NCBI RefSeq assembly: GCF_001552075.1
Contig: NZ_BCQM01000003.1
Location: 186,001 to 250,000, forward strand
From: Arthrobacter luteolus NBRC 107841
GTDB taxonomy: Bacteria > Actinomycetota > Actinomycetes > Actinomycetales > Micrococcaceae
Direction of reading: 5' to 3'
DNA: 64,000 nucleotides
The position numbers and the translations under genes are program-made. Positions 1-15,217 of this stretch are shown one piece after another; the stretch's first letter is position 1, and the number at the start of each line of letters is the position of its first letter. The notes beneath the pieces are model-generated. The model saw only the letters and a program-made list of their open reading frames with translations, had not been told where the DNA came from and ran no database searches.

Positions 1-237
1 GGCCGGTTCCTTGATGGGTTTGGCCGGAGTGGCCGGCCCGCGGTCGGCGGGGGTCTGGGGTTCCGTGACGGGCACACCGGCGGCGGGCTGCATGGGCTCG
101 GTGATCTGCTCGGTCCGGGCGCGGCTGGACGGCACCTCTTTGAGGTGCGGGTAGTGGTCTAGGTGAGCGCGGGGGACGGTGTGCGGCAGGATTTCGTTGG
201 TGCGGGTGTCGCGCACGCGGATCCATTCGGCTGGCAT
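1..237 (-). CDS. Hypothetical phage protein (partial, runs off window)
   Basis: The frame is open from an ATG at 237 to the window edge (79 codons). The N-terminus (MPAEWIRVRDTRTNEILP) resembles small proteins found after head-tail connector genes in actinophages, and the tail of the visible part is Pro/Ala rich. An AGGAGG sits 6 nt upstream of the ATG, and the upstream gene stops about 10 nt before it, so it belongs to the structural operon. Function unknown. Confidence 0.6.
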   Translation of the reverse strand, partial: MPAEWIRVRDTRTNEILPHTVPRAHLDHYPHLKEVPSSRARTEQITEPMQPAAGVPVTEPQTPADRGPATPAKPIKEPA

Positions 238-4735: not shown

Positions 4736-5787
4736 CCGGCCAGCGCTCGCAGGTCCCGGACCGGGGTTACGTGCATGGCATCGCGCCACCCGTCGGTGCT
4801 GACCTTCGTGGACAGGTCGTCCCAGCCGATGGTGCCGCTGTTGAGCAGTTCGAGCCGGTCTCGGCCCATGATCCGCGCCTGGGTGTCTGCGGTGAGGCCG
4901 TCGAACCATTCCCTTGAATCCGGCAGCAGGTCGTCGGGTTCGTCGAGATTGAAGCCGAGTTCCCGCCAGGACTTCGTTTTGGGGATCCGGTCACACCGTC
5001 CCTGATGGTGGTCGATCGGACCCTCTTCGTCCACGGGGTGGAGCTTGCCGTGCTGGGCGAGGCAGGACGGGCAGGTGCGGGCATCCAGGGATGCTCCCCA
5101 TAGCCAGCCGGCCATCAGATCGGTGTTGGCTTCGTCGGCAGCTTTCGTTGCTGCGCGGTGCGCGTCCAGCATCTCCGTGCGGGCTATGGTCATGGCCCGG
5201 GTGAGCCCGCCGTTGAAGCCCTTCTCAGCCTGCCTGACCATGTTCCGGGCAACCTTGCGAGGGTTGTCCCCGATAGCGATGCCCCGGATGAGGTTCCGCT
5301 TCATCATGGCCACAGCATCATCGGAGAGGGGCAGCAGCCCGGTCGTGATGTTCTGGGCCGTGCGTGCAACGATGGCATCCATCGCCGAGTCGGAGACCCG
5401 CGTCCAGGTTGGCATGACGCTCACCCGATGATCCGTAGGCATCTGCGAGACCGCGACGTCGATCTGGGACTGGGCTGCAGCCAGCGCGGTACGCATGACC
5501 TCGGCTTTCGCGGTCACATCAGCCATTTGTGCGAGTTCGTCGAGTCGGTCAGCTGCGAGGCTGAGGGCCTTCCGGAGCCGGATGTTCTTCGCTGCCTGGG
5601 AGCCGGTGACGCGCCCGTTCTTCGCGGACGTCATCAGCTCGGTCAGCGCGGCGTCGAACTCCGCGGCCAGCTCATCCCAGGCCATGGCCCACGCACTGAT
5701 TAGTGCAAGGTCAAGGTCAGCGAGGATCTGATCCAGGTCGGTGCGGCGCCCGGACAGGAGGGCGAGGGTCTGGCTCGTTATCGCCAT
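4732..5787 (-). CDS. MuF-like minor head protein
   Basis: A 351-aa protein with a C-terminal Phage_Mu_F-type domain: ARTEMLDAHRAA followed by TCPSCLAQHGKLHPV and a distal His/Cys pair (DHHQGRC). These proteins associate with the portal and are present in few copies. The N-terminal 190 residues are largely helical. The ATG at 5787 has GGAGG 6 nt upstream; the longer frame to 5817 has no better site. It lies between portal and protease, as usual. Confidence 0.75.
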   Translation of the reverse strand: MAITSQTLALLSGRRTDLDQILADLDLALISAWAMAWDELAAEFDAALTELMTSAKNGRVTGSQAAKNIRLRKALSLAADRLDELAQMADVTAKAEVMRTALAAAQSQIDVAVSQMPTDHRVSVMPTWTRVSDSAMDAIVARTAQNITTGLLPLSDDAVAMMKRNLIRGIAIGDNPRKVARNMVRQAEKGFNGGLTRAMTIARTEMLDAHRAATKAADEANTDLMAGWLWGASLDARTCPSCLAQHGKLHPVDEEGPIDHHQGRCDRIPKTKSWRELGFNLDEPDDLLPDSREWFDGLTADTQARIMGRDRLELLNSGTIGWDDLSTKVSTDGWRDAMHVTPVRDLRALAG

Positions 5788-5866
5788 CCGTGTCCTCCAG
5801 ATCCTCGATGAGTTCAAACTCGGCCTCGACCAGTCGGCCGAGCTTCCCGAACTGGGTGACCCTCAT
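5717..5866 (-). CDS. Small ORF coupled between two head genes
   Basis: A 49-aa frame starts with an ATG overlapping the TGA of the upstream gene (ATGA) and runs 71 nt into the MuF gene in another frame. The N-terminal 30 residues are helical and acidic, the rest Pro/Arg rich where it overlaps MuF. No clear ribosome site beyond coupling. It may be a translational bridge rather than a functional protein. Confidence 0.35.
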   Translation of the reverse strand: MRVTQFGKLGRLVEAEFELIEDLEDTDGDNEPDPRPPVRAPHRPGSDPR

Positions 5867-6132
5867 GCGGCTTGCTCGTCCGCCCGCTGCCTGATCCGTT
5901 CCAGCGCGAACGCATTGACTTGGTCAGGGTGCAGCCCGGACAACTGGCAGTAGTAGTCAGCTATCCGGACAGCGCCGGGCCGGTGAGCGTTCTTCATTGC
6001 GTACGCAATGAAGAACAGCTCGCAGGCAACAGCAAGGGATGACTGCAGGGGCGGCAGATAATCGCCAATGTCAGCCCGCGCTTCCGGGAGTAAGGATGCC
6101 ACAGCGTTCTGTACGCGTCTGAGGTCGCTCAT
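5863..6132 (-). CDS. Hypothetical phage head-region protein
   Basis: An 89-aa mostly helical protein between portal and MuF genes. A hydrophobic stretch near residues 32-47 (SLAVACELFFIAYAM) is probably a buried helix rather than a membrane segment. Its ATG overlaps the portal stop (ATGA) and AAGGAGG lies upstream. No family recognised. Confidence 0.6.
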   Translation of the reverse strand: MSDLRRVQNAVASLLPEARADIGDYLPPLQSSLAVACELFFIAYAMKNAHRPGAVRIADYYCQLSGLHPDQVNAFALERIRQRADEQAA

Positions 6133-7652
6133 CGGATGGCCTCCTTGTTCTCACCGCGCCGGAACGCCTTCACGGCTGTGTCGCCGGCGCTGGCGTCGGG
6201 GTCTACCCAGTTGCCGTCGTCGTCGGTCACGTCCGCGAGGATTTCGTCGACGTCTCGCACGCCGAGGGCACGGAGCATGAGCCGCAGGGTTACGAGCGGC
6301 GGCATCTTGCCGGTGCCGTCCGCTTCCACGATCGCTTTCATGATCGTTTCGACGGGCAGCTCGTTGATGTCCGGCCACGCAATGTCCAGGGTCCGGTCAG
6401 TGTTCCCGGCCAGCTGGACGGTGAGCGTGTTCTGCTCCCGGGTGACGGTGCCCTTGAGTGGGCCACGCGGTGCGATGACTGCTTGGTCGATGACGTATCC
6501 GAGGATTGCGCGGAACGCTTCGGTCCACAGTTCCTGCCGGCCCTTGAACTCCAGCCGGGTGGGCTGGTTCAGGGTCTCTGCAACGGCGCGGGCGCCGGTC
6601 TGGCCTGGGTCAGCCATGAGCGTTGTGACGGGGATGCCGAGGCCGGCGGCGACTTGTGTGGCGACGGGCCGCCCGGATTCGGAGTCGATGGTGGCCCCGG
6701 TCTTCGGGACAGCCTCGATCTTCTGATCCCCGGTCGTGGCCACACTGGAGCCAGCCGGCATCTGCTGCAGCGCGGCACGGGTCCGCTGGGACATGGGGGT
6801 CTTGGACTTCGACATCTGGAACGCGATCCGCGACAGGGCCTTGACGAGCAGGACCCAGTCCTCAAGGAACTCCTTGTACGCCCGTGCCCAGGGGAGGGAT
6901 GCATAGGCGTCGCCGATGCCGAACTTCCAGCCGTCAAGGCCGTTGTCCTGCAGGTGGTAGACGGGGGAGTCCCACATGATCGGGTAGCTGTTCTGCCCGT
7001 CCGTCCATGACTTGGTGCGGGTATTGGGCCGCCACCGGATGTCCGGGTAGTAGGCCGTATGCGGGGAGCCGTTCTCTTCCCAGTCCCGCCGGTAGAACAT
7101 GGTGGTCATCCGGTCCCCGGGTACGGTGACCTTGTCCGCGATCTCATCGAACGGGAGGGTGCGGGGGATGACCTTGCCGGTGAGCGGGTTCGTGAACAGG
7201 GCAATGAACACGTTGCCGTCGGTGCCGATCGCGGTTTCCAGCCGGAGTTTCGCCTGGTGCCCGGTCAGCGCGGCACGGGACGCGTCGTCGTCGAGGAAGT
7301 CCTGCACGACGACGTTCACGTCCTGCTGGCCCTCAGTGCCGTCGGAGCGGGCGGTGATGCCAACACCCTGCCCATGGACGTATGACGCCCGGATGGCGAG
7401 GCCCCGCTTGATGAGCGGGTTAGCGATCGCCATCATGCGGGAGAGTTCCGCGGCGCGCTTCAGGCCTTCACGGCTGAACTCGTTCGAATACTGGCCGAGC
7501 AGTTTCTCCCAGCCCATGTCCTCCATGGCCAGCTGCATCTGCACCATGGATTCCTGCAGCTTCTCCGCACGGTACTCCGCCGTAGCGAGTGCACCCTCGG
7601 TGACGGTGTTGGCGGATTCCTGGAGTCCGAAGAACTGGGCGAGCTTACCCAT
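6129..7652 (-). CDS. Portal protein
   Basis: A 507-aa protein directly after the large terminase gene, with the size and composition of siphovirus portals. It should form the ring through which DNA enters the head. The N-terminal 80 residues are helical; a C-terminal segment carries conserved-looking TLDIAWPDINELPVETIMKA. CTAGGAGG precedes the ATG at 7652. The call rests on size, order and overall resemblance to actinophage portals. Confidence 0.8.
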   Translation of the reverse strand: MGKLAQFFGLQESANTVTEGALATAEYRAEKLQESMVQMQLAMEDMGWEKLLGQYSNEFSREGLKRAAELSRMMAIANPLIKRGLAIRASYVHGQGVGITARSDGTEGQQDVNVVVQDFLDDDASRAALTGHQAKLRLETAIGTDGNVFIALFTNPLTGKVIPRTLPFDEIADKVTVPGDRMTTMFYRRDWEENGSPHTAYYPDIRWRPNTRTKSWTDGQNSYPIMWDSPVYHLQDNGLDGWKFGIGDAYASLPWARAYKEFLEDWVLLVKALSRIAFQMSKSKTPMSQRTRAALQQMPAGSSVATTGDQKIEAVPKTGATIDSESGRPVATQVAAGLGIPVTTLMADPGQTGARAVAETLNQPTRLEFKGRQELWTEAFRAILGYVIDQAVIAPRGPLKGTVTREQNTLTVQLAGNTDRTLDIAWPDINELPVETIMKAIVEADGTGKMPPLVTLRLMLRALGVRDVDEILADVTDDDGNWVDPDASAGDTAVKAFRRGENKEAIR

Positions 7653-7672
7653 GCGGGCCTCCTAGGATCGGG

Positions 7673-9178
7673 TTAGACGGGGGAGATGCTCCACCCGTGC
7701 GTGTTTTGGAAGTCGTACTCATCCGGCTCGGTGACGTCGTCCCTGGGGCTGGGGATCGGCAGGAGCAGGAGCCGGTTCACGGCTTGGGACAGGGCGTCGA
7801 TGGTGTCGTCGTGGGCGCTGTTGGGGAAGTTCTTCGCTTCCTCGATCAGCTCGTCCACGTTCGGCAGCAGCTCCGCCTCGGGCAGGACCACGTTCCAGGA
7901 TTCGGCCAGCGGGGACACCGCCGATGCGCGGGCGTACTTCGACCCCTCCGGCTCGATGGGGATTAGCCCGATCACGGTCTTGCCGAGGGCGTTCATGACT
8001 GCCGGCCCGTTGGCCTTGTCTTCGACGAACTTGGCCACGGCTTGTGGCCACTTCGCGGACATGTCCTTGATGGCCTGACAGGTGGCGGTGAAGTTCAGGC
8101 GTGCCCGGACCTGGTCGAGCAGGTATGCGTGGACGCCGACCCGCAGCCACACCTGCCCGACCACGTAGTCCGAAGACTTGGTGTCCTTGAACGCGAGGTC
8201 CCAGGACTGCACCAGCTCGTGATCGTCACGGCCTATGCCGGGGACGGTGCGGGTGCCGTCCGGGTTCTCCTGCCAGAGCGGGGAGCTGTAGCGCGCCCAC
8301 TCGGCAGGGAACACGCCACCCTCATCGGGGGATGGCCGGCCTTGGTAGAGACTGGCCCACGTACGGGCGCCGGAAGCGATCTTCCGTTTCACCCACTGGA
8401 GGCGGGTTCGCCGGCGGGCGGATTCCATGAACTCGCCCGGCTGCCGGCCAAGCGGGTCCGTTTCGCCTTTCTCGGGGCGGTGGTCCGCTTCGGCGGGAAT
8501 GTTGATGACCTTCCAGTCCTTCCCGTCCTCGGCTGCGAGGAGGCAGCCTGCGAGGTCGTCCGCGTGCCAGCGGGTCAGGATCAGGATCACGGGTGCCCCG
8601 GGTGCGAGGCGGGTGAGCGCGGTGTCTGTCCACCAGTCCCAGGCGCGCTCGCGGTAGACGTCGGAGTCGGCCTGTTCGCGGTCCTTGATGGGGTCGTCGA
8701 TGATGAGCAGGTCCACGGGCCGGCCGGTGAGGGCACCGCCGATACCAGCGGTGTAAACGCCGCCTTCGTGGCCTTCAAGCGACCATTCGTGCTGCGCGGC
8801 AAGATCGGGGCGGACACTGAGCCCGAGTTCTTTGCCGTGGGTGGTGATGTCGTCACGGATAGCGCGACCCCACCGGCGGGCAACATTCGACTCATACGAC
8901 GCGATGGCGATACGCAGGTCATTGTTCTGGGTGAGGCACCAGAGCGGGAAGCGGCGGGACGCCCGCTGCGACTTCCCCTCCTGCGGCGGCATGCTGATGA
9001 TCAGCCGGGAATCCGGGGTGTTGAACGCTTCAACCAGGGCCGCGTCGATCAGGTCCAGCGCCGGCGTCTGCACGGTCTTGTGATCCAGGGCGGCAGCCAT
9101 GTCGCCGGGGGTGGCCCACTTCGGCGGCGCCGGCGGCTCGAACATGCGGGCCGCGGCTTCCCACATGGTCAAGCTCAC
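7673..9178 (-). CDS. Large terminase subunit (TerL)
   Basis: A 501-aa packaging motor. A Walker A-like PPQEGKS lies at residues 64-70 and a Walker B LLIIDD at 157-162. The C-terminal RNase H-fold nuclease is marked by WDLAFKD, FVEDKANG and a late HDDTIDAL acidic site. The start is GTG at 9178 with AGGAGG 5 nt away. It is separated from the small terminase by an HTH gene and a 660-nt region with possible regulatory RNA. Confidence 0.92.
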   Translation of the reverse strand: MSLTMWEAAARMFEPPAPPKWATPGDMAAALDHKTVQTPALDLIDAALVEAFNTPDSRLIISMPPQEGKSQRASRRFPLWCLTQNNDLRIAIASYESNVARRWGRAIRDDITTHGKELGLSVRPDLAAQHEWSLEGHEGGVYTAGIGGALTGRPVDLLIIDDPIKDREQADSDVYRERAWDWWTDTALTRLAPGAPVILILTRWHADDLAGCLLAAEDGKDWKVINIPAEADHRPEKGETDPLGRQPGEFMESARRRTRLQWVKRKIASGARTWASLYQGRPSPDEGGVFPAEWARYSSPLWQENPDGTRTVPGIGRDDHELVQSWDLAFKDTKSSDYVVGQVWLRVGVHAYLLDQVRARLNFTATCQAIKDMSAKWPQAVAKFVEDKANGPAVMNALGKTVIGLIPIEPEGSKYARASAVSPLAESWNVVLPEAELLPNVDELIEEAKNFPNSAHDDTIDALSQAVNRLLLLPIPSPRDDVTEPDEYDFQNTHGWSISPV

Positions 9179-9197
9179 TGGTTCCTCCTGGCTCGGA

Positions 9198-9330
9198 TAT
9201 ACTTCCTGCAGCGATACCTTCGCGGCGCCTATGGCAATGCGTTAGTTGCGGACAACAGATGCCGGCTAGCAGGGCACTCATGTTCAAAGGCTGTTGAGCG
9301 GGTCACCGACGGGTGGCCCGCTTTCCTTTT
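9198..9330 (+). ncRNA. Candidate small RNA with promoter and terminator
   Basis: A perfect-looking -10 TATACT (9198-9203) on the plus strand is followed about 95 nt later by a strong intrinsic terminator (9298-9330). No convincing coding frame lies between. The transcript would start near 9210, run against the TerL leader and be about 120 nt long. I could not fold it into a tRNA. The -35 is unclear. Confidence 0.3.
9298..9330 (+). terminator. Intrinsic terminator, plus strand
   Basis: A 10-bp stem (9298-9307 with 9312-9321) containing one U-G pair that works only on the plus-strand RNA, a short loop, then TTTCCTTTT. No annotated plus-strand gene lies just upstream. Confidence 0.6.
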
Positions 9331-9339
9331 GCCCTGAAG

Positions 9340-9486
9340 TCAGAGGTTCGCTTCGATGTAGGCGTGACCGTCGGGCGTTGTCGTGACGCCCTTCGCCGGA
9401 TTAGCGCAGTCGCAGCCTTCGACCCAGACAGGTGCCGACTGGTCAGGCAGGGCAGAAAGCGCCTTGATCAGCTCTTCAACCGTCAT
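9340..9486 (-). CDS. Small acidic phage protein
   Basis: A 48-aa frame beginning MTVEELIKALSALPDQ, with a CDC motif near the middle. The helical start and codon use look like a real gene. GAGG lies 5 nt upstream of the ATG. It sits between the structured leader element and TerL in the same direction. No family recognised. Confidence 0.6.
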   Translation of the reverse strand: MTVEELIKALSALPDQSAPVWVEGCDCANPAKGVTTTPDGHAYIEANL

Positions 9487-9570
9487 GGAATCCTCGGAAG
9501 TTGTTGACGGCTACTGGCTCGCCCCGCTGGAGTGTGGGTGGGTCGGGGGTTTTCGCCGTCAAGTTTGTTG

Positions 9571-9689
9571 GGTGCTGGCGCGCAGGTCGCGTTCATGGCA
9601 AGGGGCAGAAAGACCCACGGTCGGGGACCCTCGAACGGCCTTCACCGGAAGCGGTGCGCTTCGTGGGTCGGCGTTGACGCGCCAGCGCC
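9571..9689. ncRNA. Nested inverted-repeat element, possible structured leader RNA or packaging site
   Basis: A 12-bp outer stem (9571-9582 with 9678-9689) encloses an 8-bp perfect stem (9612-9619 with 9662-9669), which encloses CACCG/CGGTG closed by four bases and GGTC/GACC closed by three. The minus strand is favoured because a near-consensus leftward promoter (9783-9811) lies upstream; one outer pair is a wobble only in the plus-strand RNA. It could be an RNA leader, or a DNA site for terminase given its place beside terL. Confidence 0.5.
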
Positions 9690-9699
9690 AAGAATGGGG

Positions 9700-9734
9700 G
9701 AGGCCCCGCGGTCATGGGGAATTGGCGGGGCCTC
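9700..9734. terminator. Perfect 10-bp hairpin in the terL leader
   Basis: GAGGCCCCGC (9700-9709) pairs perfectly with GCGGGGCCTC (9725-9734) around a 15-nt loop. It lies about 45 nt after the expected start of the leftward transcript. No T-tract follows, so attenuation or RNA stability is as likely as termination. It shares GGCCCCG with the stems at 16,207 and 26,842. Confidence 0.45.
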
Positions 9735-9782
9735 GTGCGTGTGGGGGCCGGTCTCAGGAGCCACCACTCGCACTATGCCTAC

Positions 9783-9811
9783 AGGCTACGTTGCAGTTTT
9801 CAGACTGTCAA
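9783..9811 (-). promoter_or_regulatory. Leftward promoter ahead of TerL (candidate late promoter)
   Basis: On the minus strand, TTGACA (9811-9806) is followed after exactly 17 nt by TAGCCT (9788-9783). This is the best match to a housekeeping promoter in the structural region. Transcription would begin near 9776, run through the hairpin and nested element, and on into the 48-aa gene and terL. Confidence 0.65.
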
Positions 9812-9836
9812 GCACTGCTTGCTGATACGCCAACTA

Positions 9837-10694
9837 TTAGGCGGCGAGCTGCGAACGCTTGTAGCCAGCGGCCTTCGTTGCGGCCCATAGGTCCCGCACA
9901 TCGGCGATGAGGTAGACGGACCTGCCGTCCCGTGTGCCCGTGGCTACGAGCTTGCCTCGGTTCGCCCAAGATCGGATGGTGGCTTGGGGGAGTGCCTCGC
10001 GGGTGACGGGGTCGGAGAGCATGCGGCTGATCTCTGCCGCGGTGCCGTGCTGCAGCTCGGCTGCGGCAAGTGCGCGTTCCCGCCAGTCACTCACGTCCCA
10101 TTCCTGGCCGCAGGCTCGGCAGTGAGCGTATGGCCTGCCGGTGAGCGCGTACAACGGCTGTCCGCACTCGAAGCCTGCCTCATCCAGGGTGGGGCACATG
10201 CCGGCGAATACCCGCTGCCCGGCCCGGTCGGTGGCGCGGGCGCAAGCGTTCAGGGCGTCGCGGAGTTCGGTGAACAGGTCGCCCGCCCAGGCTTGCCGGC
10301 GGATGAGGTTCAGCTGGGAGACAAGCCACCCGGCGACGGCGGGTGCTTCACCGGCGGGAATGAGTGTGGGGAGGTGGCTGGCCCAGCCGGCGAGGATCAC
10401 GGACAGGGTTTGCGCCTGGTCTAGGGCGTCGAGGTTGGCGGGCTCCGCAGGCGATGTACTGCCGCCGAGTCCGCCAACACTGCCAGCTCCGACGTCGAGC
10501 TTGCACGCACTGGTGCGGATGCTCGACCATGTGCCGGGCACTTCCCGGAGTGCTGCCTCGAGCTGCTCGGTGTGCCGGTGGCAGAGGGTGATGCCGGCGG
10601 GGAGGGGTGCTGTGCAGGTGGGGTGGGTGCATCTGCTCCCGTGGGCACTGTCCGCTACCTGGATGATGGTGCCCTTGATTCGCTGCCCGCTCAT
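9837..10694 (-). CDS. Zinc-finger and MerR-like HTH phage protein
   Basis: A 285-aa protein with an N-terminal Cys/His cluster (CTHPTCTAPL then CHRH), a second cluster in the middle (CGQPLYAL, CRACGQEW) and a C-terminal winged-helix-like region (ATIRSWANRGKLVATG) typical of MerR-type DNA binding. It lies between TerS and TerL, so it may bind DNA in packaging or late regulation. GAGGTGGAG precedes the ATG. Precise role unknown. Confidence 0.6.
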   Translation of the reverse strand: MSGQRIKGTIIQVADSAHGSRCTHPTCTAPLPAGITLCHRHTEQLEAALREVPGTWSSIRTSACKLDVGAGSVGGLGGSTSPAEPANLDALDQAQTLSVILAGWASHLPTLIPAGEAPAVAGWLVSQLNLIRRQAWAGDLFTELRDALNACARATDRAGQRVFAGMCPTLDEAGFECGQPLYALTGRPYAHCRACGQEWDVSDWRERALAAAELQHGTAAEISRMLSDPVTREALPQATIRSWANRGKLVATGTRDGRSVYLIADVRDLWAATKAAGYKRSQLAA

Positions 10695-10757
10695 GCTCCA
10701 CCTCGTATACCCGCCAACACTTCCCAGTCTACCAACTGACAGTAGGCATTTTGGGCA

Positions 10758-11378
10758 TTATTCAGCGGCGAGTGCACGCAATTGTTGGGGCACCACGGTC
10801 TGCACCAGCTTCCACTGCTTCGCCGACAAGTCCAGGGCTTCGAGGATCCCGCGGATCACCCTGGCCACCAGCTCACCCTGGGACTCTGCCAGGCGGACCT
10901 TGCGTTCCTCGATGCCCGCTTTGAGCGCCGCGGTGGTGACCTTGACCAGGTGCTCCCGCTCGCGGAGGTACAGCTGGTACCAGACGGACGGTTCGGCCTT
11001 CATGGTGGTCTTGTCGATCGGCCCCTCCGGGCCGATGCCTTCCTCGTGGGAGACCTTGCCCCACGCCAACGAGTCCGCGTCCAGCTCGGCGACCTTCCCG
11101 CGCAACCACTGCACATGCGCGTAGGTCACACTGATCTCCTCCAGCAGGGCCTTGCCTGGGTCGATATCGGCGTACTTCTCCGTGATCCCCAGCATCCGTA
11201 CAGCCCGGTCAGCTTGTTCCGCCGCCTTCCGCTCGGCCAGCCGACGCTCCGCCGCCTTCTTCGCCTGCGGCGACTTCCCGCCGTGCCGTCCGCAACGCTT
11301 CTGACCCTTCATCGGCGAGGCAGCGCACGGGTTGCCGTCACGCTTACGGGCACCGCATATTGACGCGTTTTTCTTCAC
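10758..11378 (-). CDS. Putative small terminase subunit
   Basis: About 206 aa, with the N-terminal CGARKRDGNPC, a basic KGQKRCGRHGGKSP stretch (HGGxP type) and a long helical C-terminus, as in proteins annotated as small terminase in actinophages. The GTG at 11378 is favoured because it overlaps the upstream TGA (GTGA) and has GGAGG at good distance; the ATG 3 nt earlier is too close. The assignment rests on this motif and on position before terL. Confidence 0.6.
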   Translation of the reverse strand: MKKNASICGARKRDGNPCAASPMKGQKRCGRHGGKSPQAKKAAERRLAERKAAEQADRAVRMLGITEKYADIDPGKALLEEISVTYAHVQWLRGKVAELDADSLAWGKVSHEEGIGPEGPIDKTTMKAEPSVWYQLYLREREHLVKVTTAALKAGIEERKVRLAESQGELVARVIRGILEALDLSAKQWKLVQTVVPQQLRALAAE

Positions 11379-12604
11379 CATTCTCCTCCCACGTATCTGA
11401 GCTCACCAGGCGGCCGGGCGTGTATAGGTACATAAACTATCGCCGCTTCCGGATCGAGCCTCATTTCTTCCGCGGATCCGCTGAATTCACAGTTCATAAA
11501 GCCGACCTTCGGGGGTGTGGAATTCCGTGAGGTCACCCTGACAACGTCAGGGGATTCGAAAGTGCAGCCGCTGAATCGAATCGATGAAGGGTTCCCAACG
11601 AAGGTTATCGTCACATCTCCGGATATGAATCGGCAATCCATAAACTCCAGGTACATTGCTTGGCCCATGAAGGGAGTCACATAAATACTCCCTCCGTCGA
11701 AATCACAGTCGGCAAAGGTGATACCCACCTCGCTCTCTTGCAGTGCGGGCGTTATCTCCAGTTTCCCGCCCTCGAACTCTGCCTCGAGAAACCAGGGATT
11801 GGTGAAGTCGCCCTGGAGGGCCATAACGCCACTCTGCAGTTGGAGCCCCTTGATCATTCCAGTCTCGTGCCAGGAGCAGTCACGCAAAATCAGTTGACCG
11901 CCCCGAACGGCCGCGTCGAGTAGCTCGAACCCCAAGTCAGCCCGCTGAAGTGTCATGGCGCTTCCGCTCCAGCTCCGGTCTGTGCCGGAAAGATCCTTTC
12001 TGATCCGTGACGCAACGATTGACACTGCCTCTGCCGCTGCGCTGGATCCAGGCTCCTCGGATGCTGAGTCCTTGATGAACGAACAAAGAAGGGCGATGCA
12101 CACCTGCTGCTCGTCGAAATTACCAAGGGCTGCCCAGTCATCGGATAGGGAGGCCAGAGAATGCAAGCCGGCCAGCTGCACAGCGCTTCTGTCACTTCCC
12201 AGCTGCTCAGCAGAACGGGCGTAGCGGTTCCGCAGTTCGCCGACCTTCTCAAGATCATGTTTATCCAAGCTCAGATTCAAGGTGTCCTGTGCCACCCGCT
12301 GAGCTTCAGCTGCTGTGTTCTGTGCCTCTTGCGCGAGTCTTTGGGCGTTCTCCGCCGTCTGCTGCTTCCGGTAGGAGAAGAAGATAGTCACCCCTACGAC
12401 GAGGGCGCCAGCTAAGGTGACTGCGTTCCGCGTGATCGAGAAATAAACCTCCTGGTCCAATTGGGATAGCCAGAATTTTTTTCTTCCGGCGGCCTGCCAT
12501 GCGAAGAACCAGAAGCAGGATCCGATGATAGCCAGGGAGAAACCAATGCCGGATAAAAATACGTTGCGCAGCTTCATCGGCTTCCGCTCTTTGGATTTCC
12601 TCAC
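11375..12604 (-). CDS. Membrane-anchored coiled-coil protein with pentapeptide-like repeats
   Basis: A 409-aa protein with two N-terminal membrane segments (about residues 14-35 and 57-76), a coiled coil (AENAQRLAQEAQNTAAEAQ), a helical RYARSAEQLGSDRSAVQLAG segment, then beta-rich repeats with regularly spaced Cys-x-Phe units (FADCDFDGG, FMDCRFISG, FSGCTFES). Similar architecture occurs in actinobacterial pentapeptide-repeat membrane proteins. Its TGA overlaps the GTG of the terminase gene. More AT-rich than neighbours, so it looks acquired. The GTG at 12604 is uncertain; an ATG 27 nt inside is also possible. Confidence 0.6.
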   Translation of the reverse strand: MRKSKERKPMKLRNVFLSGIGFSLAIIGSCFWFFAWQAAGRKKFWLSQLDQEVYFSITRNAVTLAGALVVGVTIFFSYRKQQTAENAQRLAQEAQNTAAEAQRVAQDTLNLSLDKHDLEKVGELRNRYARSAEQLGSDRSAVQLAGLHSLASLSDDWAALGNFDEQQVCIALLCSFIKDSASEEPGSSAAAEAVSIVASRIRKDLSGTDRSWSGSAMTLQRADLGFELLDAAVRGGQLILRDCSWHETGMIKGLQLQSGVMALQGDFTNPWFLEAEFEGGKLEITPALQESEVGITFADCDFDGGSIYVTPFMGQAMYLEFMDCRFISGDVTITFVGNPSSIRFSGCTFESPDVVRVTSRNSTPPKVGFMNCEFSGSAEEMRLDPEAAIVYVPIHARPPGELRYVGGEW

Positions 12605-12613
12605 GCCGAGACT

Positions 12614-12793
12614 CTATCGTACGTGTCGCCCATCATTCGCATGCAACCGCGCCTTCTTTCCCTTGTGAATTAATGACGGCCGTCGGCCGTGACGGTGGTG
12701 GTATCGCCGAATCTTTCGGTAGAAGGCGCGCTCTGCATGCCGTTCCTGCCGCAGCTCTTTGGCAGCCTGGGAGATGTCTTGGGTGAGTGTCAT
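12614..12793 (-). CDS. Small basic phage protein
   Basis: A 59-aa, strongly basic frame (FYRKIRRYHHRHGRRPS in the middle) starting MTLTQDISQAAKELRQE. AAGGGG lies 6 nt upstream of the ATG and the stop lies 9 nt before the membrane protein gene, so the two may be co-transcribed. It could bind nucleic acid, but no family is recognised. A longer overlapping frame exists and is less convincing. Confidence 0.5.
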   Translation of the reverse strand: MTLTQDISQAAKELRQERHAERAFYRKIRRYHHRHGRRPSLIHKGKKARLHANDGRHVR

Positions 12794-12943
12794 GGTTGGC
12801 CCCTTCCGGCAGGATCAGCTTCGCGTCCATCTGCCTGTCGGCGGAACCTGAGTTGCTCCGGCCGTGGACGCCGACCGGCCGCCCGTGGGCCTGTGCAGGA
12901 CCGGTCATGATGGTGGGGCTCCGGTGCACTTCCTGGCCCCACA

Positions 12944-12949
12944 TATGCT
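12944..12949 (+). promoter_or_regulatory. Possible -10 box for the plus-strand membrane gene
   Basis: TATGCT lies about 38 nt before the GTG at 12988. The rest of the 12,794-12,987 interval, between divergent genes, shows no other clear signal. Confidence 0.3.
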
Positions 12950-12987
12950 GGTCTGCGTCATCGTCTGGTTTTTCTTTGGGGGAACGC

Positions 12988-13542
12988 GTGGAAGTGGATA
13001 TGCAGGAGTTCGTGGGGAGCGAGATCTTTTGGGGAGCGCTGGCCGTCATCGTCGCGTTGGCCGGGTCCGTGGGCTCTGCGCTGGCATTCGGAATCACCGC
13101 GTGGCTCCGGCATCGAGAACGGCCGAGTGCGGATTGGGCTGTCGAAATGAATGGCTCTGCCTATTGGGAAGGCTCGCCTGCACGCAGCGGGTACATGCTC
13201 AACGGGCACATTTCCAACGCTGGTGACGGAGAAGCGTTTCGGGTTCGCTTGGAAGCACGTGGGTGCGAAGTCGATCTTTTTACACCATCGTCTGGGGGGA
13301 GGGTCGCTCTCGTATCTCCGGGAGAGCAAGTGCACTTCCGGATCATGGCTCGACTGGATGCTTGGGCGACCGCAAATGTGGAAGTGGTTTGGATCGAACC
13401 GCCCACCCGTCTCCAAAGGGAATCTCGTGTGCCGTTGCACCCGCGACTTCATATGGAACGCCCGGAAGTGACCGAAGACGTGACGAACCCAGAGACTGGC
13501 GTTGTAAGCCAGGTCGTCATAGATCCAGCGACCTACGCGTAG
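12988..13542 (+). CDS. Single-pass membrane protein on the opposite strand
   Basis: A 184-aa protein with one N-terminal membrane helix (about residues 12-35, GALAVIVALAGSVGSALAFG) and a soluble beta-rich domain with NAGDGEAFRVRLEARGC and SPGEQVHFRI, suggesting an Ig-like fold. It runs against the prophage operon and is probably a moron. The GTG at 12988 is chosen for the GGGGGAA upstream; an ATG 12 nt later is possible. Function unknown. Confidence 0.55.
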   Translation: MEVDMQEFVGSEIFWGALAVIVALAGSVGSALAFGITAWLRHRERPSADWAVEMNGSAYWEGSPARSGYMLNGHISNAGDGEAFRVRLEARGCEVDLFTPSSGGRVALVSPGEQVHFRIMARLDAWATANVEVVWIEPPTRLQRESRVPLHPRLHMERPEVTEDVTNPETGVVSQVVIDPATYA

Positions 13543-13642
13543 AAGCTTGCAACCTCTCAACGCGCTCATGTCATTTTCTCCGGTTCTGGGTGGTCTGGGC
13601 AGTCGTCCCGTAGCGGGTGTGGTGCCAGACTGGTTTGGGGTC

Positions 13643-13792
13643 TCAGAGCCGTGGCTCGGAGAACCAGTCGCAGGTGCAGTCCGGTGTGCGGGTGGGCGCC
13701 GGCACAGGTGGGAGAAGGCGGGCGTAAGCGGCTTGCCAGTCCCGCTCCTGGGCGCGCTCGATGCGACGGATGGCCTCGCGTGCGTTACTCAT
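13643..13792 (-). CDS. Small phage protein with CTCDW motif
   Basis: A 49-aa frame: a basic amphipathic helix (MSNAREAIRRIERAQERDW), a Pro-rich linker and a C-terminal CTCDWF. The start overlaps the end of the upstream gene by 8 nt, suggesting coupling; there is no strong ribosome site. Function unknown. Confidence 0.5.
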   Translation of the reverse strand: MSNAREAIRRIERAQERDWQAAYARLLPPVPAPTRTPDCTCDWFSEPRL

Positions 13793-14453
13793 GGGAGCCC
13801 AAAACTGTCGGGTCTTCAGGCACTATTGGATCCGGAAACTTGCTGGCTTCAAACACAGTGTTGAACCATGCCAGAGCCTTCACCAGGCTCATATCCAGTG
13901 GAAGTCCCTCAACAAAGGCCTCATATGCAGGCCGCTTGTCTGGCTGCTGATCGTAGCGAGTGCCGATTATCTCCGCAGCCTCCATCCAGCGATTCGATGG
14001 GCTGATGTAAATGACCCCATCACCACCGGGTGGGACCAGGAAGTCTCTCTTCGCGCCACCGGCTGCGGTCACGAGGATCTCGTGGGCATGACGGTTACGA
14101 AGCCAGGACATCCCGTTGACTATGCATCCGTCCGGGTCAGCATCACGCGCTTCGGTATATATGCGGTTGAGGTGTTTCTTGAGGGCATCGTCCAGTGCAA
14201 TTGCCCACCAAACGCCTTCGACGGCGCCAGTCCAGGAATCGAAAGCGTCCCGGTGTCCAGCACGGCTGATACATGCGGCGAGGGCGGACTTGCTCCAGTG
14301 CATTGCTTGGAGCTGGTCAGGGTCAGGAATTCGAGGAGCTTTCTTGATCCCTTCCCAATAGGGAGCGGCCTGGTGATCCATACTGCGGGCCCGGATGCTG
14401 GCGGTCGGTGCTGGCCGGCGCTGCTGGCGCGGGGTTTCGGAGTGCTCTGTCAT
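13785..14453 (-). CDS. HEPN-like protein (possible RNase)
   Basis: A 222-aa protein. The first 40 residues are basic and disordered; the rest is helical. A RNRHAH segment fits the Rx4H motif of HEPN ribonucleases, preceded by EGVWWAIALDDALKK and a helix with Tyr-Thr-Glu-Ala-Arg, a common HEPN layout. The start is an ATG at 14453 that overlaps the upstream stop (ATGA). HEPN proteins act in toxin-antitoxin and abortive-infection systems; here that is inference from one motif, with no obvious antitoxin beside it. Confidence 0.5.
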   Translation of the reverse strand: MTEHSETPRQQRRPAPTASIRARSMDHQAAPYWEGIKKAPRIPDPDQLQAMHWSKSALAACISRAGHRDAFDSWTGAVEGVWWAIALDDALKKHLNRIYTEARDADPDGCIVNGMSWLRNRHAHEILVTAAGGAKRDFLVPPGGDGVIYISPSNRWMEAAEIIGTRYDQQPDKRPAYEAFVEGLPLDMSLVKALAWFNTVFEASKFPDPIVPEDPTVLGSHE

Positions 14454-14590
14454 TTGCGCATCGTATAGGTTTGGTCCTCGGGGCCGGGCGGTGTCCATCC
14501 GTCGGCGACCAGGGCCGCAGCGGCATCCTGGGTGACGGCGCACCCGTCCGCGAGCCGCGGGGACACCATGACGGTGACAAGCGCACCCAT
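14450..14590 (-). CDS. Small phage protein upstream of the HEPN-like gene
   Basis: A 46-aa frame beginning MGALVTVMVSPRLADGCAV. GGGAGG with a CACCCTG spacer precedes the ATG at 14590, and its TGA overlaps the next ATG, so the HEPN-like gene is probably translated from the same message. Function unknown. Confidence 0.55.
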   Translation of the reverse strand: MGALVTVMVSPRLADGCAVTQDAAAALVADGWTPPGPEDQTYTMRK

Positions 14591-14604
14591 CAGGGTGCCT
14601 CCCG

Positions 14605-14610
14605 TAGACT
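14605..14610 (+). promoter_or_regulatory. TAGACT -10 box for a leaderless gene
   Basis: TAGACT ends 7 nt before the ATG at 14618. It overlaps the ribosome site of the divergent 46-aa gene, so the two may interfere. Confidence 0.5.
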
Positions 14611-14617
14611 CAAGCCC

Positions 14618-15217
14618 ATGTTTCGGGGAATTGTCTTGGGGGAACTTTGGGGAGTAGACGAAGGCGTCTGGGTCCAGCTCTGGTCAGGATTTCTGGGCGC
14701 CGCCATGTCAGCAGGTGTTGCGGCTTGGGTTGCAGTGTCCGTGCTGAAGCGATCGAACAAGCACCAGAAAGCCTTGGCGGATAGGCAACGGGAGATGTCG
14801 GCTATGGCTGACCTGCTTGCGGCAGCCAGCCGGTTTGAGTACACGCCGTTCGATGCCACACACACAGTCATCCTGGAACAGGATGCGGGTTTTCGGGCTG
14901 CGGTATACCGGTGGGGTCTAGAAACGCAAGAGATGACGTTCCTCGGAGAGCTGGACCGCGCCTCGCATGTTCTCACAGCTGGAAGCCTCGCCGCGATTGA
15001 CAAATCCTCGAACGCCTCTGATCGGGGGCTGTGCATATCAACGGTGCAGGAGATGGTATCTGCCCTCACAGAATTCGGACTTGCTTGGTACGCACCCGAC
15101 AAAGGTGACCGCGAGCGATCGGGACGCAGGCTGACCGCGACAATCAACAGACTGCGCAAGCGGCTCGCGGCCGTATTGGATGACGGGCCCCTTGCTACAG
15201 ATACCCCAGCGCTGTAG
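14618..15217 (+). CDS. Single-pass membrane protein on the opposite strand
   Basis: A 199-aa protein with one N-terminal membrane helix (about residues 20-44, LWSGFLGAAMSAGVAAWVAV), then a basic coiled region and a helical cytoplasmic domain. Its ATG fits a leaderless transcript. It runs against the prophage operon and ends 7 nt from the convergent Cys-rich gene. Likely a moron; function unknown. Confidence 0.55.
   Translation: MFRGIVLGELWGVDEGVWVQLWSGFLGAAMSAGVAAWVAVSVLKRSNKHQKALADRQREMSAMADLLAAASRFEYTPFDATHTVILEQDAGFRAAVYRWGLETQEMTFLGELDRASHVLTAGSLAAIDKSSNASDRGLCISTVQEMVSALTEFGLAWYAPDKGDRERSGRRLTATINRLRKRLAAVLDDGPLATDTPAL

Follow-up and report, generated by a model that had tools for sequence, protein, structure and literature searches.

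The phi29 pRNA is about 120 nucleotides (nt) long, has a closed stem, is encoded in the packaging and head neighbourhood and is represented by an Rfam model. The hammerhead ribozyme is a three-way junction in which the hairpin loops are in contact and the joining strands, CUGANGA and GAAA, are conserved. Packaging sites of phage DNA often lie near the terminase genes. Prophage hammerheads are located between genes and have been suggested to cut long phage transcripts, according to excerpts of PMC3088659. GOLLD and ROOL, both in Rfam, are structured phage RNAs of unknown function that are often found near tRNA genes, and GOLLD often exceeds 800 nt, as described in passages of PMC12286853. In lambda, late genes are controlled by Q at pR′, and the Q families are PF06530, PF03589 and PF06323, as given in part of PMC7171158.

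Here we describe a control segment (9504–9811, minus strand) located between an HTH gene with cysteine motifs (9837–10694) and the gene encoding the terminase large subunit (terL; 7673–9178). The window, the whole 64,000-nt stretch of DNA analysed, is part of an actinobacterial genome; the genes around the segment are prophage genes on the minus strand, and the IMG/VR viral contig L009 carries an identical segment. The segment comprises separable conserved parts, namely a sigma70-type promoter, a 10-bp hairpin (HP2), a core RNA of about 120 nt (9571–9689) and a 3′ hairpin. The features are as follows, with the basis of each assignment in brackets where one applies.

9837–10694, minus strand: 285-aa protein, phrog_908, with invariant C-x9-C and C-x2-C motifs and a MerR-like C-terminal HTH
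9783–9811, minus strand: sigma70-type promoter TTGACA-17-TAGCCT (pattern count in relatives)
9768–9777, minus strand: motif CATAGTGCGA, located at the predicted start (unchanged among the window, L002, L003 and L049; similar in others)
9735–9773, minus strand: HP1, GTGCG..CGCAC hairpin after the promoter (fold; relatives by eye)
9700–9734, minus strand: HP2, 10-bp GC-rich hairpin with a C-rich loop and, here, a weak U tract (covariation)
9571–9689, minus strand: core, predicted kissing-loop RNA with P1, P2, P3, P4 and GAAGG/CUUUC (covariation)
9678–9689 and 9571–9582, minus strand: 5′ and 3′ strands of P1 (covariation)
9670–9673 and 9643–9646, minus strand: 5′ strand CGCC of P2 and its partner GGTG (covariation)
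9628–9633 and 9599–9604, minus strand: 5′ strand CGAGGG of P3 and its partner CCCTTG (covariation)
9662–9669 and 9612–9619, minus strand: P4, with its 5′ strand GACCCACG in the P2 loop and its 3′ strand CGTGGGTC in the P3 loop
9639–9643, minus strand: GAAGG joining strand, possibly pairing with CUUUC at 9608–9612 (hardly varies, no covariation support)
9504–9562, minus strand: HP4, the 3′ hairpin, TTGACGGC..GCCGTCAA with an inner CCCCCG/CGGGG
9340–9486, minus strand: 48-aa ORF between the leader and terL, with a plausible ribosome site (ORF list)
7673–9178, minus strand: terL, phrog_38 (family search)
6129–7652, minus strand: portal (family search)

The order of the locus, with a regulator-like gene followed by a sigma70 promoter, a hairpin that is terminator-like in some relatives, and late genes, resembles that of the lambda pR′/Q region, whereas the phrog_908 protein falls outside the Pfam Q families and the U tract of the window HP2 is weak. 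The core shares with the hammerhead a predicted three-way junction with loop contact and a position between phage genes, but its joining strands are GUCAA, AAGG and CCUGC (by eye) and no Rfam hammerhead family matched it in the loci searched. Like GOLLD and ROOL, it is a structured phage RNA with tRNA genes as frequent neighbours in the pre-terminase slot; however, it measures 96–142 nt across 28 distinct cores, also occurs among head genes, and matched neither the GOLLD nor the ROOL covariance model in the 20 of 28 loci searched. ROOL is also far longer than the core. With the phi29 pRNA it has in common a length of about 120 nt, a closed stem and a packaging or head neighbourhood, whereas the core lacks an Rfam match (20 of 28 loci) and is absent in close relatives, which indicates that the packaging motor does not require it. 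None of the 4227 families of Rfam 15 matched the core in these 20 loci, of which the window was searched at gathering scores only (reached by no family there), three core loci up to E 1 and 16 up to E 0.5. A search of open-licence PMC papers returned no description of the core RNA, which may be in print elsewhere. We place the core among the structured phage RNAs, alongside GOLLD, ROOL and the prophage hammerheads, and there is a fair chance that it constitutes a new RNA class.

The first-pass annotation, made from the window alone, had placed the element just upstream of terL, in a stretch without a good gene. The segment is indeed near terL but does not directly adjoin it, as the 48-aa minus-strand ORF (9340–9486), which matched no Pfam family, intervenes. 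The second statement agrees with our judgement by eye: 9487–9836 holds no convincing gene, and nothing supports the plus-strand frames of 175 and 97 aa that a mechanical ORF list places there. A strong inverted repeat (9296–9323), terminator-like on the plus strand in a scan, lies between the 48-aa ORF and terL. Folding of 9560–9780 gave a z score of −3.16 on the minus strand (1 of 200 shuffles as good) and −1.96 on the plus strand (7 of 200), and the longer stretch 9179–9780 reached only −1.62.

The previously noted promoter is present on the minus strand, with TTGACA at 9811–9806, a spacer of 17 and TAGCCT at 9788–9783. A sigma70 scan of 5000–15000 listed no promoter (1.1 expected by chance); it missed this one because it requires four of six positions per hexamer and TAGCCT has three. 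Among the relatives, the pattern TTGNNN-16..18-TANNNT was found in 13 of 19 pre-terminase regions (0.9 expected) and its stricter TTGAYN form in 10 of 19 (0.11 expected), whereas neither occurred in the 12 other contexts (0.05 expected for the TTGNNN form); the 19 regions include three without a core (L049, L021 and L010), and L082 is counted among the 12 others. The promoter thus belongs to the slot, and the core is a module. The perfect 10-bp hairpin of the earlier annotation was likewise confirmed as HP2 (9700–9709/9725–9734, minus strand), which was spotted by eye, and covaries, in 16 of the 19 regions, and was not seen in L073, L078 and L085. Pairing was retained in 91.8% of 171 HP2 cells (79.9% in shuffled alignments), 7 of 11 pairs were changed on both sides, and the covariation score was 0.373 versus 0.169 shuffled (0 of 500 as high); the shuffles ignore relatedness, for which slid versions, scoring at most 0.133, correct. 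The U tract of HP2 ranges across the regions from one to six T in the next eight bases, with two in the window, one in L003 and L071, and five or six in L005, L012 and L057, where HP2 is terminator-like. In HP4 of L011, the letters of the inner stem are changed and the pairing is kept (by eye).

DNA similarity identified the segment in L002 and L003, of the same genus (3 of 29 genus genomes, including the window's own). In both, a homologue of the HTH gene immediately precedes it, and terS and a different type of terL follow (by eye); the segment thus goes with the HTH gene rather than with one terL. An alignment of the window with L002 and L003 contains compensatory changes in the stems. These two loci share another stretch (GCAGGACC.ACCGAAAGG..GGTGACTGTATCTA; L002:1771–1845 and L003:1085–1170) between the core region and terS. 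The next-closest terL relatives after the identical L009 (L029, 93%; L010, 87%) had no match to covariance model R1, and homologues were therefore sought through DNA similarity, the HTH gene, covariance models (R1 from 9 cores, R2 from 17) and patterns. The window leader and L079 gave no blastn match in the phage records, and L081 gave only matches of 26–28 nt. In a sample of the family, 14 of 395 genomes matched at E 0.01, and 10 were kept; the four dropped as chance (27–32 bits; by eye, without a pair test) were L075 and L076, which look as if they lie inside coding sequence, and L074 and L077, which are one chromosomal site in two genomes. In the order, 13 of 396 genomes matched at E 0.001, and 12, in six families, were kept, with L087 (28 bits) dropped as doubtful. 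Only the window and L087 were recovered from 396 genomes of the phylum at E 0.001 with stricter filters, and none outside the order; the three genome samples overlap. Among 25 phage and viral records, many of them fragments, seven matched R2 at E 0.1, six strongly and Hum25 weakly (15.1 bits). The 28 distinct cores comprise the cores in hand, those from the genome searches and those from two DNA-pattern scans of viral contigs; L087, a weak second match in L101, the L101 copy identical to L081, L088 (the same core as L082) and repeats were left out of the alignment.

In the isolated Arthrobacter phages TripleJ and Kukla, whose records open with terL at base 1, the core lies in noncoding DNA close to the end of the genome. 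Another noncoding block, at 2583–2773 in L056 and close to the right end of the genome, matches 34 Arthrobacter phage records in parts; TripleJ and Kukla are among the matches listed for this block, and the matching piece of Richie is preceded by a tRNA-Trp and followed by an HNH gene. In L049, the promoter, HP1, HP2 and HP4 are present and the core is cleanly missing, with no core match elsewhere in its contig; an HNH gene, with an AP2 domain just under the Pfam cut-off, and then terL follow downstream. HNH/AP2-like genes lie in the slot beside leader parts at L049:5082–5573 (Pfam) and upstream of the core in L073 (by eye). The clean absence from L049 and the 19 of 25 records without a strong match indicate that the core is dispensable. 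In L010 and L021, a promoter-like sequence and HP2 are followed by a different conserved noncoding stretch, beyond which lies a tRNA. This second stretch (CGCGCACGCCGCTCGC..GGACCCGGGAGGACTGCAGAACCTCCCGGGT-like), between HP2 and the tRNA, occupies L010:4390–4580 and L021:3360–3510, and a piece similar to it precedes the core in L078 (by eye). Before terL in Montesquieu (L063:2987–3052), where relatives carry the RNA segment, there are four direct repeats (GGTGTCAAGACTACTA-like).

The alignment of the cores predicts a closing stem, P1, that holds the hairpins P2 and P3, the loops of which kiss through P4 in the long-loop form. The first-pass annotation had described 12-bp and 8-bp nested stems. 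Both sets of arms stand, the 12-bp pair (9571–9582/9678–9689) being 11/12 complementary and the 8-bp pair (9612–9619/9662–9669) perfect, but the homologues place the 8-bp pairing between the loops of the P2 and P3 hairpins, and the nested reading of these arms was dropped. The search for compensatory changes in homologues that the first-pass annotation had proposed found them in P1, P2, P3, P4 and HP2. Across the 28 cores, 90.8% of 607 pair cells were standard (64.0% shuffled), 19 of 22 pairs were changed on both sides (13.6 shuffled), and the covariation score was 0.600 against 0.154 shuffled (0 of 500 as high); these shuffles again ignore relatedness, for which the slid versions (at most 0.100) correct. 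The R1 and R2 alignments are biased towards the structure built into them, first deduced by hand. This is answered in part by the 11 cores outside the R2 training set, in which 97.1% of pair cells (231 of 238) were paired, compared with 70.0% with permuted partners (0 of 1000, kinship ignored); most of these 11 were found by the models and hence selected for pairing, whereas L098, L099 and L100 came from DNA patterns.

Complementarity between the P2 and P3 loops was 14.36 for own partners, compared with 11.62 (s.d. 0.50) for permuted ones in the 28 cores, and 17.75 compared with 13.83 in the 18 long-loop cores (0 of 2000 in both, kinship ignored). The contact is weak in L078 and L002 (ranks 16 and 11 of the 18) and was not seen by this test in the 10 short-loop cores. 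The joining strands hardly vary: GUCAA is present in 27 of 28 cores, AAGG in 27 and CCUGC in all 28. CUUUC is present in 22. One P3 pair is kept as G-U in 25 of 28 cores, which points to the minus (late) strand as the RNA. With the promoter pattern in 13 of 19 regions, HP2 in 16 of 19 and a covarying core in 28 loci, these elements are not chance.

The cores occupy two slots in late operons. Seventeen of the 28 precede the terminase genes (the window, L002, L003, L005, L012, L025, L053, L056, L057, L070, L071, L073, L078, L082, L085, L086 and L098) and eight lie among head genes (L031, L069, L079, L080, L081, L084, L089 and L100); the assignment, based on the ORFs of the core's own strand, covers 25 of 28 cores and excludes L072, L083 and L099. 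Recognition of the terminase rests on a family search for the window, annotation for L056 and L057, tblastn for L005, L012 and L025, and inspection by eye for the other 11. PHROGs place the core between the major head protein and a head–tail adaptor in L069, L079 and L100, after a head maturation protease and the major head protein in L084, and between the scaffold and the major head protein in L101, the core of which is identical to that of L081; the head-gene context of L031, L080 and L089 was assigned by eye. The core begins 4–19 nt after the upstream stop codon in L031, L069, L073, L079, L081 and L084 (63 nt in L100), and a start codon follows it by 19–27 nt in L079, L080, L081, L084 and L089. 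tRNA genes often adjoin the pre-terminase cores, as in L002, L025, L082 and L086, and also in L012, where the anticodon is unclear. Genome G299 has three cores: those of L082 and L088, equal in score and sequence and with the same near flanks, lie beside a tRNA and an HNH-like gene, and that of L089 lies among head genes. A further copy (L072:1501–1604; 58 bits with R1 before its use in training) lies beside a sugar-epimerase-like gene at a site that looks chromosomal (by eye), and is possibly a relic or a host-used copy. To judge from these positions, the core is a movable RNA module of late operons, found before the terminase or among scaffold, capsid and head–tail genes.

The protein search for the HTH gene found it in 3 of 297 genomes of the order, one being the window's own. 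Among the pre-terminase loci, similarity supports the upstream HTH gene of the window, L002, L003, L053, L056 and L085, and that of L070, L086 and L098 aligns at 23–49% identity; L005, L012 and L057 have a different cysteine-motif protein upstream of the core, and in the remaining loci the HTH gene was assigned by eye or is not visible. No Pfam family matched the phrog_908 protein at E 0.01, and thus none of the three Q families named above. Its structural model (pLDDT 74.7, pTM 0.47) matched no solved fold at E 0.001 in Foldseek, and its C-terminal part resembles BldC without reaching significance (probability up to 0.99, E 0.2). We infer that it is a candidate late regulator, controlling transcription here; the modelled likeness to BldC, a DNA-binding fold of the activator type, would suit promoter activation as well as antitermination.

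Our leading explanation, to which we give somewhat less than an even chance, is that the late operon of a temperate actinophage starts at this locus, with the core acting in cis on late mRNA ends. Control of the late promoter would be exerted near the hairpin, in the manner of Q at lambda pR′, with the adjoining HTH protein as the candidate controller. The core would fold while the late messenger is made and fix an RNA end at the gene border, by guiding cleavage or by stopping an exonuclease, which would allow the RNAs upstream and downstream of it to be handled separately. The earlier suggestion of a leader RNA for late-gene control survives in part: a structured late leader is supported by the conserved promoter, the compensatory changes and the place between a regulator-like gene and the terminase, and the core also lies among head genes. 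The presence of cores beside packaging or coat genes in related viruses suggests a role in handling late transcripts, and action in cis on RNA ends is favoured by how closely the core is fitted between a stop and a start codon at several head-gene loci.

The closest competitor, plausible and close behind, is a trans-acting small RNA, which would be co-transcribed with the late genes, freed by processing at P1 and have the host or the virion as its target. The freedom of place, before the terminase or among head genes, would be immaterial to such an RNA and, together with the tRNA neighbours, favours it nearly as well. P1 would close the core on itself, certain joining strands are kept, and tRNA genes are frequent neighbours in the pre-terminase slot, as reported for GOLLD and ROOL in the passages of PMC12286853. 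Against this, the phage genes on which the slot assignment rests share the core's strand in all 25 assigned cores (only that strand was scanned), which is needless in trans; several head-gene cores are wedged between a stop codon and the next start; and the promoter pattern is found in none of the 12 other contexts, so that the core there would lack its own promoter of that type. Placement at gene borders itself would suit a trans-acting RNA, or cargo without a function for its neighbours, as well as the cis role.

A new self-cleaving ribozyme cutting the late transcript would be a special case of the favoured cis role and is unlikely in its own right. A three-way junction, loop–loop contact, little-varying joining strands and a position between phage genes like that of the hammerheads in the excerpts of PMC3088659 are all consistent with it, but no Rfam ribozyme family matches (20 of 28 loci), the sequence alone names no cleavage site, and the short-loop cores lack the loop contact. 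Slightly more doubtful still is the idea that only the promoter and HP2 matter, as a late control region like lambda pR′, with the core as a passenger. The promoter, or a promoter-like sequence, and HP2 do persist without the core in L049, L021 and L010 (L010 fails the TTGNNN-16..18-TANNNT pattern), whereas the fold is kept by compensatory changes in 28 loci, including eight head-gene contexts without the promoter pattern. A cos- or pac-type packaging site, as also raised by the first-pass annotation on account of the nearby terminase genes, is very improbable, because the core has no fixed place and also lies among head genes, is absent in L049 despite the same flanking hairpins, and conserves pairs more than letters, with one G-U kept in 25 of 28, and because Montesquieu, a relative with a 60.4% identical TerL, is reported as headful by PhageTerm in the text excerpted from PMC9331655.

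Returning to action in cis, the core may, as a tentative possibility on a par with the trans-acting RNA, represent a new RNA class built as a three-way junction with kissing loops, perhaps a self-cleaving ribozyme of a new kind or an exonuclease-resistant RNA, that serves as a portable joint dividing the actinophage late transcript at the terminase and capsid borders. The core of about 120 nt in the isolated phages TripleJ and Kukla offers a concrete object for tests of cleavage, exonuclease blocking and protein binding. If these readings are correct, the locus would be a pR′-like late control region beside which lies the regulator-like phrog_908 protein of unknown function, and phages of the window's order would share a portable, folded late-operon RNA to which no Rfam 15 family was matched in the loci searched.
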